A stretch of 37,009 bases of DNA from the NCBI GenBank assembly GCA_029061495.1, contig JAIDRX010000032.1, forward strand, positions 1 through 37,009. The letters are read 5' to 3'. The stretch comes from Clostridia bacterium (GTDB lineage: Bacteria > Bacillota > Clostridia > Christensenellales > Borkfalkiaceae). Numbering within the stretch: position 1 is the stretch's first letter; every line of letters starts with the position of its first letter. The notes under the pieces were generated by a model. It was not told where the DNA came from. It saw only the letters and a program-made list of their open reading frames with translations, and searched no databases. This document shows positions 7,085 through 19,950 of this stretch, in pieces. The translations under genes and the position numbers were made by a program.

Positions 7085-7113
7085 TTGAAAAATACAAAAC
7101 AATATGCTATAAT
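7085..7113 (+). promoter_or_regulatory. Promoter leading array A
   Basis: TTGAAA, 17 nt, TATAAT, directly before the conserved cassette leader AAAGGGTAAAAGACTT. Confidence 0.7.
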
Positions 7114-7137
7114 TATTTAAAGGGTAAAAGACTTTAA

Positions 7138-7254
7138 TTTGCTTGGCTGCGTACCGGCGGCGACACTGATGCTTCCGGCGCTAATTATCTGTCGGGTATA
7201 GGTAGTGCTTACGGTACGGACAATTTGCTCCTCTTTGCGGTGCGGCCTGCGCTT
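7138..7254 (+). other. Cassette A1
   Basis: 39 codons in the frame F-A-W-L-R-T ... A-V-R-P-A-L. Variable core starts GGDTDASGANYLSGIGSAYG. There is no in-frame start codon with a ribosome site. Similar to the end of C-type-lectin-fold (DUF6273-like) domains. Confidence 0.7.
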
Positions 7255-7276
7255 CAATTTTACCACGCCAAACAGA

Positions 7277-7305
7277 TTTACAAACCTCATACTTTGCGGT
7301 ATAAT
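7277..7305 (+). promoter_or_regulatory. Internal cassette promoter (A1-A2 spacer)
   Basis: TTTACA, 17 nt, TATAAT, then 9 nt to AAAGGGTAAAAG. Equivalent sequences with 17-18 nt spacing occur before A3 and A4 and, as TTTGCA-N18-TATAAT, between most array C cassettes. Array B keeps a weaker TAAAAT. Confidence 0.6.
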
Positions 7306-7329
7306 CAGGCAAAGGGTAAAAGACTTTAT

Positions 7330-7446
7330 TTTGCTTGGCTGCGTTCCGCCGATTATTCTTATGCGTACAATGCTGTTTATATTTCGGGCAGCGGGTCCGG
7401 TGATTGGACTATCGCTGCTCGGCGGTTAACGGTGCGGCCTGCGCTT
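7330..7446 (+). other. Cassette A2
   Basis: 39 codons, FAWLRS to TVRPAL. Core ADYSYAYNAVYISGSGSGDW. The first flanking Gly is Ala here. Confidence 0.7.
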
Positions 7447-7523
7447 TACTTTTACCTCGCCAAAACAGGTTTACAAACCTCATATTTTTGCGGTATAATC
7501 AGGCAAAGGGTAAAAGACTTAAA

Positions 7524-7640
7524 TTTGCTTGGCTGCGTTCCGGCTTCACTACTCTTACTGCTTACGGTTCGGGTTATCTTGCGAACAAGAGCGGTGCTTC
7601 TGCTTTAACTTCGCGACTCATAGCGGTGCGGCCTGCGCTT
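7524..7640 (+). other. Cassette A3
   Basis: 39 codons, FAWLRS to AVRPAL. Core GFTTLTAYGSGYLANKSGAS. It lies in a different frame from A2, so readthrough is not possible. Confidence 0.7.
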
Positions 7641-7719
7641 CATACTTTTACCTTCGCCAAACAGGTTTACAAACCTCATAACTTTGCGGTATAATTGCCC
7701 AAAGGGTAAAAGACTTCAT

Positions 7720-7836
7720 TTTGCTTGGCTGCGTTCCGGCAATAATCGTTATGCGTACTTTGCTTCTTACCTTTGCGGTACGGGAGACTACGACACTCCT
7801 TACCCGGCGCGTCAGTTAGCGGTGCGGCCTGCGCTT
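7720..7836 (+). other. Cassette A4 (last of array A)
   Basis: 39 codons, FAWLRS to AVRPAL. Core GNNRYAYFASYLCGTGDYDT. Its frame continues into the tail as LAVVSRIRLVIHNRTD before a stop at 7911. C6 has the same in-frame extension. Confidence 0.7.
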
Positions 7837-8035
7837 CACTCACTCCGCAAGTATTATATTTTGGCGGTGGTTTCCCGTATTCGGTTAGTGATTCACAACC
7901 GAACAGATTGATGTGAGTTGAAGGGTCTTTTGTCCGGTTCTTGCAAACTATGCAAGACGAATAAAAGCCCAACCACGGTGTAACGCAAGCAATTAGGCTT
8001 GGTTTACTTCCGTTTCCGAAAGGGGTTGGGCAATA
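7837..8035 (+). ncRNA. Array-terminal structured element, copy A
   Basis: About 200 nt shared with the ends of arrays B and C. Hairpin P1 pairs TTCGGTT (7880) with AACCGAA (7897). P2 pairs TCTTGC (7939) with GCAAGA (7952). P3 is a long-range stem, GCCCAACC (7967) with GGTTGGGC (8024). It encloses P4: GTAA/TTAC, a CG/GT internal loop, CAAGC/GCTTG and loop AATTAG. Stem sequences differ among copies while pairing is kept. The function is unknown; it may be an RNA domain, a terminator or a mobility end. Confidence 0.6.
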
Positions 8036-8047
8036 CTTTAAAAATTA

Positions 8048-8077
8048 CGCCGCCGCGCTTTATTAAGCGCGGCGGCG
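8048..8077. terminator. Terminator hairpin between array A and the small membrane gene
   Basis: A perfect 13-bp stem CGCCGCCGCGCTT with a 4-nt loop. On the - strand TAATTTTT follows, so it mainly serves the 8088-8369 gene. Confidence 0.75.
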
Positions 8078-8087
8078 TTCCATATAA

Positions 8088-13664: not shown

Positions 13665-13869
13665 CTAAAAAGGTATGACCCGAACGCACTAAGCAAACGG
13701 ACCTGAACCGCACTTAATTGTACGCGTCAGGACGTGGACGGGTCTGATTTGCCTCCCCGAAAGCGGAAAGGACAGGACAAAAACCCCTTCAACTCATATC
13801 ATACTGTTCAGTTGTGAATCACAAACCGAATACTGGAAAATCCCTCGCCAAATATTTTGCGGGTGAGCG
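13665..13869 (-). ncRNA. Array-terminal structured element, copy B
   Basis: The most diverged copy. It keeps the P1 hairpin with one G-T pair. P2 pairs CCTTTCC with GGGGAGG. P3 pairs GACCCG with CGGGTC (13739-13744 and 13677-13682 on the + strand). P4 has CCTGA/TCAGG, the same CG/GT internal loop, CGTAC/GTGCG and loop AATTAA. Almost every stem base differs from copy A, yet pairing is kept. The protein frame that continues in A4 and C6 is shifted and ends early here. Confidence 0.6.
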
Positions 13870-13986
13870 AAGCGCAGGCCGCACCGCTAAACGTTGCGAG
13901 GGGTAAGCAACATAGAAGCTCCCCATCCCGCAAAGGTAATGCGCATCGTACGCAACACCATCAGCGCCGGTACGCAGCCAAACAAA
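13870..13986 (-). other. Cassette B4 (last of array B)
   Basis: 39 codons, FVWLRT to AVRPAL. Core GADGVAYDAHYLCGMGSFYV. Confidence 0.68.
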
Positions 13987-14067
13987 TTAAAAGCTTTTGC
14001 CCTTTATCTGATTTTACCGCAAAATTATTTTGTTTGCAAATTTTTGGAAGGACGAGGGTGGATTTCT

Positions 14068-14092
14068 CAAAACAGTGTAGTACACTGTTTTG
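14068..14092. repeat. Perfect 25-nt palindrome inside array B
   Basis: Twelve-base arms (CAAAACAGTGTA) flank a single central base. It sits in a segment of roughly 120 bp, not cassette-like, that separates B4 and B3. It could be an operator, a recombination site or the scar of an insertion. Confidence 0.8.
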
Positions 14093-14177
14093 CCGCCCGA
14101 GGTGAGCGCTGCGCATTATACGCGCAGTCGCGGTGCCCGAGAACGGCGTTGTCCTTACGCTGTTCGAGAAAGACTTA

Positions 14178-14291
14178 AAGCGCAGGCCGCACCGCTAACA
14201 AACGAGAAGTGTAAGCAGTATAAAAATCTCCCATACCACTCATGTAAGAAGCGGCAAGCGCACTGGACGTGCCGGAACGCAGCCGAGTAAA
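14178..14291 (-). other. Cassette B3
   Basis: 38 codons, one codon shorter by an in-frame deletion. Trp of WLRS is Arg (TGG to CGG). Core GTSSALAASYMSGMGDFYT, ending TSRLLAVRPAL as in B2 and C3. Confidence 0.65.
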
Positions 14292-14365
14292 TTTAAGTTT
14301 TTGCCCTTTATTTAATTTTACTGCAAAACTATGTTATTTGCAAATTTTTGGCAAGGGCTAAACTG

Positions 14366-14482
14366 AAGCGCAGGCCGCACCGCCAACAAGCGTGAGGTGT
14401 AAGCACTGTAATTACTGCCTGACCCCGATAGGTAACCAGCATAATACGCAGGACTATGATTGCCGGAACGCAGCCAAGTAAT
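14366..14482 (-). other. Cassette B2
   Basis: 39 codons, ITWLRS to AVRPAL. Core GNHSPAYYAGYLSGSGSNYS. Confidence 0.68.
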
Positions 14483-14557
14483 TTAAAGCTTTTGCCCTTT
14501 ATTTAATTTTACCGAAAAATTATTTTGTTTGCAAATCTTTTGGCAAGGGCTAACTTA

Positions 14558-14674
14558 AAGCGCAGGCCGCACCGCTAAATTAATTGCAGAGTAGGTACCG
14601 TCACCACTGCCTGAACCAGACAAGCACCACGCACTGTTCGCATTTCTACTCTCGCCGGAACGCAGCCAAATAAA
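14558..14674 (-). other. Cassette B1 (first of array B)
   Basis: 39 codons, FIWLRS to AVRPAL. Core GESRNANSAWCLSGSGSGDG. The usual Tyr-Leu is Cys-Leu. Confidence 0.68.
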
Positions 14675-14697
14675 TTAAAGTTTTTGCCCTTTGACTT

Positions 14698-14726
14698 ATT
14701 ATATATTAAATAAAGTCAAAAGGCAA
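14698..14726 (-). promoter_or_regulatory. Promoter leading array B
   Basis: The - strand reads TTGCCT, 17 nt, TATAAT, starting within a few bases of the HNH gene stop codon. Confidence 0.55.
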
Positions 14727-16884: not shown

Positions 16885-16984
16885 TGCTTGTCCCTGCCGT
16901 TTATGATTATATCTCTTATCTATTTTACTTTTTATTGTTTGTACAGTCAAGCAATTTATATCGTTTAAGCTTAAAATTTACATA

Positions 16985-17095
16985 ACGGAATTGCTTGCGG
17001 TACGTCAAGCGTTTTTATATCTTTACAGCTTATTTTTGATTATCGAAAAACGCTTGCGGTACGTCAAGCAATTTCATAACGTTACAGCTTTATTT
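16985..17095. repeat. Two copies of a short dispersed repeat
   Basis: The motif GCTTGCGGTACGTCAAGC followed by a T-rich stretch and TTACAGCTTATTTTT-like sequence occurs twice in tandem here. Related copies lie at about 18484-18560. The core is a small inverted repeat (GCTTG...CAAGC) around GTAC. The 268-nt gap between the cyclophilin gene and rplL holds nothing else except the rplL terminator. Confidence 0.65.
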
Positions 17096-17105
17096 TTAAT
17101 AATAG

Positions 17106-18455: not shown

Positions 18456-18484
18456 ATTATAAGTTAAGTAAAGTACTTTGTCAA
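18456..18484 (-). promoter_or_regulatory. Consensus promoter of rplJL
   Basis: The - strand reads TTGACA, 17 nt, TATAAT, a perfect match. Confidence 0.9.
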
Positions 18485-18560
18485 GCGTTTTTAACACGTT
18501 GCGGCTTATTTTTAGTAATCAAAAAACGCTTGCGGTACGTCAACCATTTTTATGCAGTTA
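18484..18560. repeat. Further copies of the CGGTACGTCAA dispersed repeat
   Basis: AACGCTTGCGGTACGTCAA with flanking T-rich sequence matches the copies at 16985-17095. One copy abuts the -35 of the rplJ promoter. Confidence 0.55.
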
Positions 18561-18581
18561 ATAATAAATTTTTATGAGCTG

Positions 18582-18616: not shown

Positions 18617-18814
18617 AATTGCCCAACCCCCTGCCACAGGAAATGAACCGTAAACCAAGTTTAATTGCTTGCGTTACGCCATGGTCGGACACCGTTCGCC
18701 TCCCTTAAAAAGCGGAAGGACAGGATAAAAGACCCTTCAACTCAAATCAACAGTTCGGTTGTGAATCACAAACCGAATACGGGAAACCACCGCCAATTTT
18801 TTTGCGGGTGAGCG
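18617..18814 (-). ncRNA. Array-terminal structured element, copy C
   Basis: P1 pairs TTCGGTT with AACCGAA. P2 pairs CCTTCC with GGGAGG. P3 pairs GTCCGACC with GGTTGGGC (18683-18690 and 18621-18628), where two G-U pairs replace Watson-Crick pairs of copy A. P4 keeps CGTAA/TTACG, the CG/GT internal loop and CAAG/CTTG. A T8 run follows P3 immediately, so P3 could terminate transcription. C6 reads in frame into this tail as LAVVSRIRFVIHNRTVDLS. Confidence 0.6.
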
Positions 18815-18931
18815 AAGCGCAGGCCGCACCGCTAAAAGAATACCGGGGAGTGCACCAAACTCAGTACCGATACCGCACAGGTAGTCCACACACTTCGCAT
18901 TGTTGTACCAGCCGGAACGCAGCCAAGCAAA
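18815..18931 (-). other. Cassette C6 (last of array C)
   Basis: 39 codons, FAWLRS to AVRPAL. Core GWYNNAKCVDYLCGIGTEFG. Its frame continues into the terminal element. Confidence 0.68.
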
Positions 18932-19005
18932 TAAAGCCTTTTACCCTTTAATTAATTATACCGCAAAATATAAGGTTATGCAAACCTGTTTGGCGGGGTA
19001 GGTAC

Positions 19006-19122
19006 AAGCGCAGGCCGCACCGCTAAGAGAAACGAGTTTACGGTATCATAATCAGCACCTGATCCGGATATATAATACCCATTTTGAGCATCGCCCATCT
19101 TGCCGGTACGCAGCCAAGTAAA
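19006..19122 (-). other. Cassette C5
   Basis: 39 codons, FTWLRT to AVRPAL. Core GKMGDAQNGYYISGSGADYD. Confidence 0.68.
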
Positions 19123-19196
19123 TTAAGTCCTTTACCCTTTAATTAATTATACTGCAAAATATAAGGTTATGCAAACCTGTTTGGCGGGTTAAGTAC

Positions 19197-19313
19197 AAGC
19201 GCAGGCCGCACCGCTAAGAGTCGCGAGTTGTAAGTGCTCCATGAGCCACCCGTCCCTGACAAGTAATCAAGATCATGTGCAAGGCTATTAAGACCGGAAC
19301 GCAGCCAAGCAAT
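19197..19313 (-). other. Cassette C4
   Basis: 39 codons, IAWLRS to AVRPAL. Core GLNSLAHDLDYLSGTGGSWS. Confidence 0.68.
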
Positions 19314-19389
19314 ATTAAGTCCTTCACCCTTTAATTAATTATACCGCAAAATATAAGGTTTTGCAAAACTCTTTGGCGGGGCAAAAGTA

Positions 19390-19512
19390 AAGCGCAGGCC
19401 GCACCGCTAAAAGTCGCGATGTATATGCATTCCACGCGTCTCCGTTACTCGAAATATAATGTGCACCGTATGCAACTTTGCCATTACTAAAGCCGGAACG
19501 CAGCCAAGCAAA
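19390..19512 (-). other. Cassette C3
   Basis: 41 codons, two codons longer by an in-frame insertion. FAWLRS to AVRPAL. Core GFSNGKVAYGAHYISSNGDA. Confidence 0.68.
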
Positions 19513-19585
19513 TTAAGCCTTTTACCCTTTAATTAACTATACCGCAAAATATGAGGTTTGTAAACCTGTTTGGCGGGGTAAGTAC

Positions 19586-19702
19586 AAGCGCAGGCCGCAC
19601 CGCTAACTGACGCGATGTATAAGCATCACTATTACTGCCTGACACCGATAGGTAACTAGCGCTACACGCATCACCACGACTGCCGGTACGCAGCCAAGCA
19701 AT
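19586..19702 (-). other. Cassette C2
   Basis: 39 codons, IAWLRT to AVRPAL. Core GSRGDACSASYLSVSGSNSD. Confidence 0.68.
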
Positions 19703-19780
19703 ATTAAGTCCTTTACCCTTTAAATTAATTATACCGCAAAATATGAGGTTTTGCAAACCTGTTTGGCAGTGGTAAAAGTA

Positions 19781-19897
19781 AAGCGCAGACCGCACCGCAT
19801 AAGGACGGTCTACATAGGTATGGTTACCACCGCCCGTCCCTGTCAAATAACCGGAGCCATTAGCCACGCTATCATAGCCGGAACGCAGCCAAGCTAA
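19781..19897 (-). other. Cassette C1 (first of array C)
   Basis: 39 codons, LAWLRS to AVRSAL (Pro to Ser). Core GYDSVANGSGYLTGTGGGNH. Confidence 0.68.
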
Positions 19898-19921
19898 TTT
19901 AAGTCTTTTACCCTTTACAAA

Positions 19922-19950
19922 AGCATAGCATAATTTTGCGTAAATGACAA
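19922..19950 (-). promoter_or_regulatory. Promoter leading array C
   Basis: The - strand reads TTGTCA, 17 nt, TATGCT, placed just after the rplA terminator. Confidence 0.6.

Follow-up and report, generated by a model that had tools for sequence, protein, structure and literature searches.

Promoter-led cassette arrays in a Clostridia genome as probable dispersed satellites of a diversity-generating retroelement

Three tandem arrays of short non-coding cassettes lie in a 37,009-nt stretch of DNA from a Clostridia bacterium of the Borkfalkiaceae (GenBank assembly GCA_029061495.1, contig JAIDRX010000032.1, positions 1 to 37,009; hereafter the window), and most of these cassettes are preceded by a sigma-70-type promoter. 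We consider it probable, at roughly 60%, that the arrays are dispersed satellites of a single diversity-generating retroelement (DGR), in which the promoters would produce nested RNAs, a box at the RNA start would dock on a shared end element, and variants would be carried between cassettes and surface-protein genes. The arrays extend beyond the window. In the genome as a whole (1.47 Mb in 182 contigs, 96% complete), the sequence GCTTGGCTGCGTNCCGG had 63 matches at two mismatches or fewer, with none for the reversed control, and 64 units were extracted, namely 59 array cassettes in at least 16 dispersed arrays, three templates beside a reverse transcriptase gene, and two repeats within coding genes. 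Integron-like arrays were our initial thought, which was given up after the templates and the reverse transcriptase had been found; no search was aimed at integrons.

Array A (7119-7836, + strand) consists of four cassettes with boxes at 7119, 7311, 7505 and 7701, each made up of a box, a variable segment and a GC-rich end, GCGGTGCGGCCTGCGCTT. A promoter scan placed a lead promoter, TTGAAA-N17-TATAAT, at 7085-7113, and promoters of the second, third and fourth cassettes at 7277-7305 (TTTACA-N17-TATAAT), 7470-7499 and 7666-7695 (both TTTACA-N18-TATAAT), all four scoring 11/12. The preliminary description of this DNA had singled out the site at 7277-7305, which the scan recovered exactly, together with the N17/18 spacing that had been given for the other spacers of this array. 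Array B (13870-14692, - strand) also has four cassettes, with GGGCAAAAGC-type boxes; flank scoring gave its lead promoter as TTGCCT-N17-TATAAT (14698-14726, - strand), and the -10 has weakened to TAAAAT in all three inner units, as had been noted. Array C (18815-19916, - strand) has six cassettes, a weak lead promoter with a -10 off consensus (TTGTCA-N17-TATGCT, 19922-19950, - strand), and five inner promoters on the same strand that the scan placed with ends at 19728, 19536, 19338, 19146 and 18955. The form TTTGCA-N18-TATAAT that had been proposed for array C, which may alternatively be read as TTGCAA-N17, holds for four of these five sites, but the fifth, at 19564-19536, is TTTACA-N17-TATAGT. 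In all three arrays the promoters point along the array and the lead promoter has N17 spacing, in agreement with the preliminary description.

The promoters are a conserved sequence feature and not a product of chance, because they exceed what shuffled sequences contain and keep a fixed slot in lead flanks that have otherwise diverged; chance hexamers in AT-rich DNA were ruled out on these grounds. In the array A region, six promoter sites were found (four on the array strand), against 1.8 +/- 1.6 in shuffles. Genome-wide, the mean best score was 9.53/12 in lead flanks (n = 17) against 7.66 in shuffles (standard deviation of the set mean, 0.20), and 9.73/12 in inner flanks (n = 45) against 7.28 (0.11). 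The excess over dinucleotide shuffles thus amounts to about 9 standard deviations of the set mean for lead flanks and about 22 for inner flanks, of which only the lead statistic is near independent, the inner flanks being related to one another. Within the slot 8 nt ahead of GGG, 14 of the 17 lead units and 31 of the 45 inner units matched TATAAT in at least five of its six letters; the -10 ended 8 nt before GGG in 15 of 17 lead units, and 12 of the 45 inner units had TAAACT or TAAAAT in place of TATAAT. Lead flanks compared in pairs were most alike in the -10 (identity 0.80) and the -35 (0.59), and less so in the spacer (0.38) and upstream (0.29); the consensus was TTGCA-N18-TATAAT, frequently with TG ahead of the -10.

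Each array ends in a structured element. Seventeen such end elements, each about 200 nt long, were identified, 16 at arrays and one behind the three templates beside the reverse transcriptase gene, and their consensus structure has 38 pairs, 24 of them with compensatory changes on both sides. Those of the window lie at 7837-8031 (+ strand; array A, core GGGTCTTTTGTCC), 13676-13869 (- strand; array B, core GGGGTTTTTGTCC) and 18621-18814 (- strand; array C, core GGGTCTTTTATCC). No Rfam match was obtained for the array end elements, and viral contigs contained single scattered matches to the core among the matches listed. The box, AAAGGGTAAAAG, is complementary to the core of the end element (GGGTCTTTTGTCC in array A). 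On average, a box could form 11.75 of 13 contiguous pairs with the core of its own array; the mean fell to 9.1 for cores that differed and to 5.1 once the cores were shuffled. Box and core types also go together: GGGTAAAAGAC boxes are found with GTCTTTT cores, and GGGCAAAAGC boxes with cores that read GCTTTTG or GTTTTTG, the single exception being a mixed array. When the last unit of array A was folded, the box paired with the core in both the best structure and the centroid. A second pairing, between CGCCAAA at the 3' end of inner cassettes and the TTTGGCG with which the end element opens, occurs in many arrays and is weak overall (6.2 contiguous pairs against 4.9 in shuffles); we would treat it as a weak lead only. 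Cassettes 3 and 4 of array B are separated by some 0.1 kb of additional sequence with CACTGTTTTGAGAAATC (14177-14040, - strand); it recurs near arrays on contigs C155 and C166 and may be a small inserted repeat.

The predicted transcription start, about 6-8 nt past TATAAT, falls on the AAA of AAAGGG, that is, on the first bases of the box. Several inner cassettes are followed by a 6-pair hairpin with a broken T-run, and the sole strong terminator found in the array A region sits past the end element, where a GC-rich 14-bp hairpin (8047-8078) was scored as terminator-like on the - strand and may also stop the array RNA. Because of this position, nested RNAs with a common 3' end would be expected, of about 0.35 kb plus about 0.19 kb for each additional cassette. 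The earlier argument that a promoter in each unit speaks for transcription is therefore strengthened by the anatomy, since the predicted start lies on the pairing box and the ordinary templates of a relative show the same order of promoter, box, template and element, but the separate RNAs of 100-200 nt that it foresaw are not the likely product.

The only reverse transcriptase gene of the genome lies on another contig, C175. Its product matched PF00078 (E 1.3e-17) and phrog_1423 (E 1e-97) and contains YMDD as well as IGNQTSQ, which we take to be a signature of DGR reverse transcriptases. The adjacent gene encodes Avd (PF22296 bAvd, E 8e-12; phrog_3206, Avd of DGR), with a score under the cut-off of the NCBIfam Avd model. 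Downstream of Avd follow three tandem A-rich templates (TR1 to TR3) full of AAT codons (AATAATAATAATGCGTATAATGCTAATTAC...), then the structured element, and past these a gene for a 1690-aa protein with terminal hydrophobic segments and a variable repeat (VR). On its sequence, the C175 locus is a DGR, with reverse transcriptase, Avd, TRs and VR. Two coding VRs were found, on contigs C175 and C154, both in frame; their departures from the TRs include 12 non-A positions in one and 18 in the other. A Pfam search found no domain at the VR of the target protein. In both proteins, each longer than 1100 aa, the VR sits at about residue 440 (loci L002 5070-1 and L042 3391-2, both - strand); in DGR targets the VR is usually C-terminal.

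The same parts recur in relatives. Orthologous reverse transcriptases, 61-72% identical, are present in 13 other members of the genus. In one of the relatives, G020, six template units stand in tandem; every unit combines an A-rich TR with an end element of its own, and most have a TATAAT-type promoter in front and a T-run behind. Over 70 nt, the VR of G020 departs from its TR2 by 13 changes at A and one at another base. Five other relatives have one TR and a VR changed at A only or nearly only, with A/non-A counts such as 18/0 and 20/0. The letters of box and core differ among relatives while remaining complementary (GTAAGC/GCTTAC, TGCAAGTC/GACTTGCG, GTGAAAGTTC/GAACTTTCGTC, GGTAACC/GGTTACC and GATAACC/GGTTATT, in a register set by hand for this comparison), and the pairing was also found in two genomes of other families. 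A single template unit on the plan TATAAT, box, TR and element was observed at L231 3080-3300 (G450, another family of the order), and its core, GGGGCTTTTGTCC, is identical to that of some arrays in the genome of the window.

Comparison of the cassettes with the TRs suggests where some of them came from. When the closest cassettes were aligned with mosaics of the three TRs, 46% of TR adenines differed, against 9-16% of the other bases. Cassette 14478 (- strand, array B) is a chimera of 70 nt from TR1 and 15 nt from TR3, changed at 10 of 27 A and 0 of 58 non-A positions, and cassette 7724 (array A) matches TR1 over 40 nt with changes at A only. A search for such descent over all units yielded seven pairs of at least 40 nt with almost solely A changes, three of them in the window, and all seven lead from a TR beside the reverse transcriptase to an array cassette. 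The sequences show that mutagenic retrohoming wrote into the arrays, because several cassettes are A-mutated, and sometimes chimeric, copies of the TRs. Other cassettes, which also show non-A differences, may stem from older or lost templates. The idea that cassette RNAs serve as mutagenic templates for other cassettes was dropped, the search over all units having found no such case.

The cassettes also bear the marks of coding sequence. The variable segments of all units, templates and coding repeats included, measure 82, 85, 88, 91 or 97 nt, which is 1 modulo 3 in 64 of 64, whereas the spacers between cassettes show all remainders. The 1807 codons of these segments contain no stop, against 81 expected in shuffles, and conserved scaffold residues are written with many synonymous codons (six for the Leu at position 13, for example). 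Slippage in AAT repeats could favour three-base steps, yet it leaves the synonymous pattern unexplained. Given the single frame, the lack of stops and the synonymous scaffold codons, the cassettes have been selected as protein sequence, which requires exchange with expressed genes. One likely trace of exchange was found: over 85 of 85 nt, the variable segment of a lead cassette on contig C94 matches the VR of the C175 gene exactly, both being 25 positions away from the nearest TR mosaic, although this is one case (n = 1) that rests on a fragmented assembly. Whichever its direction, this exchange was probably not mutagenic, because all 17 As were kept, for which the chance in a mutagenic copy is about 4e-5 at the TR-to-cassette change rate of 45%. 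Two cassettes of one array also share 58 nt exactly.

Taken together, these data point to the following scheme. Reverse transcriptase and Avd would write A-mutated TR copies into silent arrays. Transcripts from the promoters would then form a nested set in which the cassette at the 5' end varies and an Sp-like element at the 3' end is common to all; the 5' box would dock on this shared element, just as in relatives with their ordinary template units. Ready-made variants would finally be carried between cassettes and surface-protein genes, either by reverse transcription with the RT-Avd complex or by recombination. A promoter for each cassette makes sense here if only the 5' unit of an RNA, with its box at the RNA end, can be used; its own promoter would give every array cassette such an RNA. 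At the place of the promoter, TR2 and TR3 of the C175 locus have a hairpin, as do several single-TR relatives. Those directly ahead of TR2 and TR3 are small (GTGCTTCTCGGCAC and GTGCTCCTTCGGCAC; L002 6195-6172 and 5965-5945, - strand) and are possible RNA processing sites. In our reading, promoter and hairpin alike would serve to place the RNA 5' end on the box.

Several observations weigh against this scheme. No A-only descent from cassette to cassette or from cassette to coding VR was found over all units, the exact C94/C175 copy fits recombination better, the second coding VR has no matching cassette in the assembly, and the assembly is fragmented. Moreover, TR2 and TR3, two of the three templates at the C175 locus, have no promoter; with the altered -10 of 12 inner units, this makes the original wording, a promoter for "nearly every" cassette, slightly generous, although it holds for most of the 62 units.

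A bolder form of the satellite scheme can be offered tentatively. It would be a two-tier DGR, in which the reverse transcriptase first fills silent arrays with random variants, separately promoted template RNAs of the array units dock on the shared element, and the expressed protein can receive a copy of any stored variant. DGRs have so far been viewed as exposing every new variant at once; here, variants appear to be stored unexpressed, in frame and under selection, along with RNA parts by which each could be retrieved. If this were true, the genome would hold an RNA-accessible library of ready-made variants apart from expression, hypermutation would be joined with a cassette archive, two strategies that are usually found apart, and wide exploration by DGRs without loss of working variants would be explained. 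For this clade, the analysis also yields a covarying helix that joins the 5' leader of the DGR RNA to its 3' element; the helix can be tested directly and may aid in finding template RNAs elsewhere.

Recombination figures still more prominently in another explanation, which we regard as rather unlikely, that of a silent donor store for homologous recombination. The arrays would then be duplicated template units whose promoters, boxes and end elements are leftovers without a present role, and RecA-type gene conversion would carry cassettes into the expressed gene as in pilS, vls and tprK. The exact identity of cassette and VR with 17 of 17 As unchanged, the 58 nt shared within one array, and a frame and scaffold kept by selection would all be accounted for. 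Idle RNA parts should decay, however, yet box/core pairing and helices are kept with compensatory changes in 16 arrays, and the lead promoters keep their -35 and -10 in diverged flanks. Retention of the helix is also hard to reconcile with arrays that are recipients only, where cDNA of TR1-3 lands in non-coding relatives of the templates, cassettes are left as a by-product or a record, and transcription does no more than open the DNA for the arriving cDNA: a target has no need of a box/core helix, and selection on protein, as read from the stops, the frame (64/64) and the synonymous variation, would not be expected. This explanation agrees with the direction of all seven A-only descents, and we consider it improbable. 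Least probable is that short regulatory RNAs, one for each promoter and cassette, stop at the GC-rich hairpin GGTGCGGCCTGCGCT, in line with the short RNA per unit that the preliminary description had suggested. Although a 6-pair hairpin with a broken T-run does stand behind several inner cassettes, it is weak and belongs to a repeat that also codes, and the RNA features match the DGR template units of relatives.

Two further features of the window were observed. A diverged repeat, GTCAAGCGTTTTT..., occurs three times around ribosomal protein genes (16945-17098 and 18480-18574), part of it with a sub-threshold match to the Rfam trpB motif. Downstream of array C, a ribosomal protein L10 leader (RF00557, barely over the cut-off) lies at 18449-18311 (- strand).

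Among known systems, DGRs of the BPP-1 type are the closest in machinery: reverse transcriptase, Avd, an A-rich TR, A-specific changes, a GC-rich repeat end and a structured element after the TR are shared. In BPP-1, the spacer after the TR folds, recruits bRT-Avd and primes cDNA (PMC12875486). The structure and covariation of the end elements were computed here, and by analogy with BPP-1 these Sp-like elements may bind reverse transcriptase and Avd and prime cDNA. A standard DGR combines a single TR with one VR or a few within genes (PMC3521204; PMC8144416), in contrast to the approximately 60 non-coding, already mutated template-like units in at least 16 arrays described here, where most units have a promoter and each array a single end element. 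A literature search of open papers found no dispersed promoter-led template arrays. The multi-template DGR of G020 resembles the arrays in that TATAAT and box lead its template units and that it has the same kind of element and the same box/core helix; it differs in that units do not share an end element but have one each, in that they all lie beside the reverse transcriptase and in that its TRs are A-rich, and no dispersed arrays were found in that genome. With pilS/pilE, vls and tprK, the last of which has 53 donor cassettes (PMC10063172), the arrays have in common many silent partial copies kept in a single frame, and a sequence shared exactly with the gene of an expressed surface protein. 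Silent cassettes are recognized as copies that lack promoters and stand in the frame of the expressed gene; here, that frame is kept, and a promoter sits at a fixed slot in most units. Unlike the cassettes of those systems, the ones described here are written by a mutagenic reverse transcriptase and are equipped with promoters and RNA-pairing elements.
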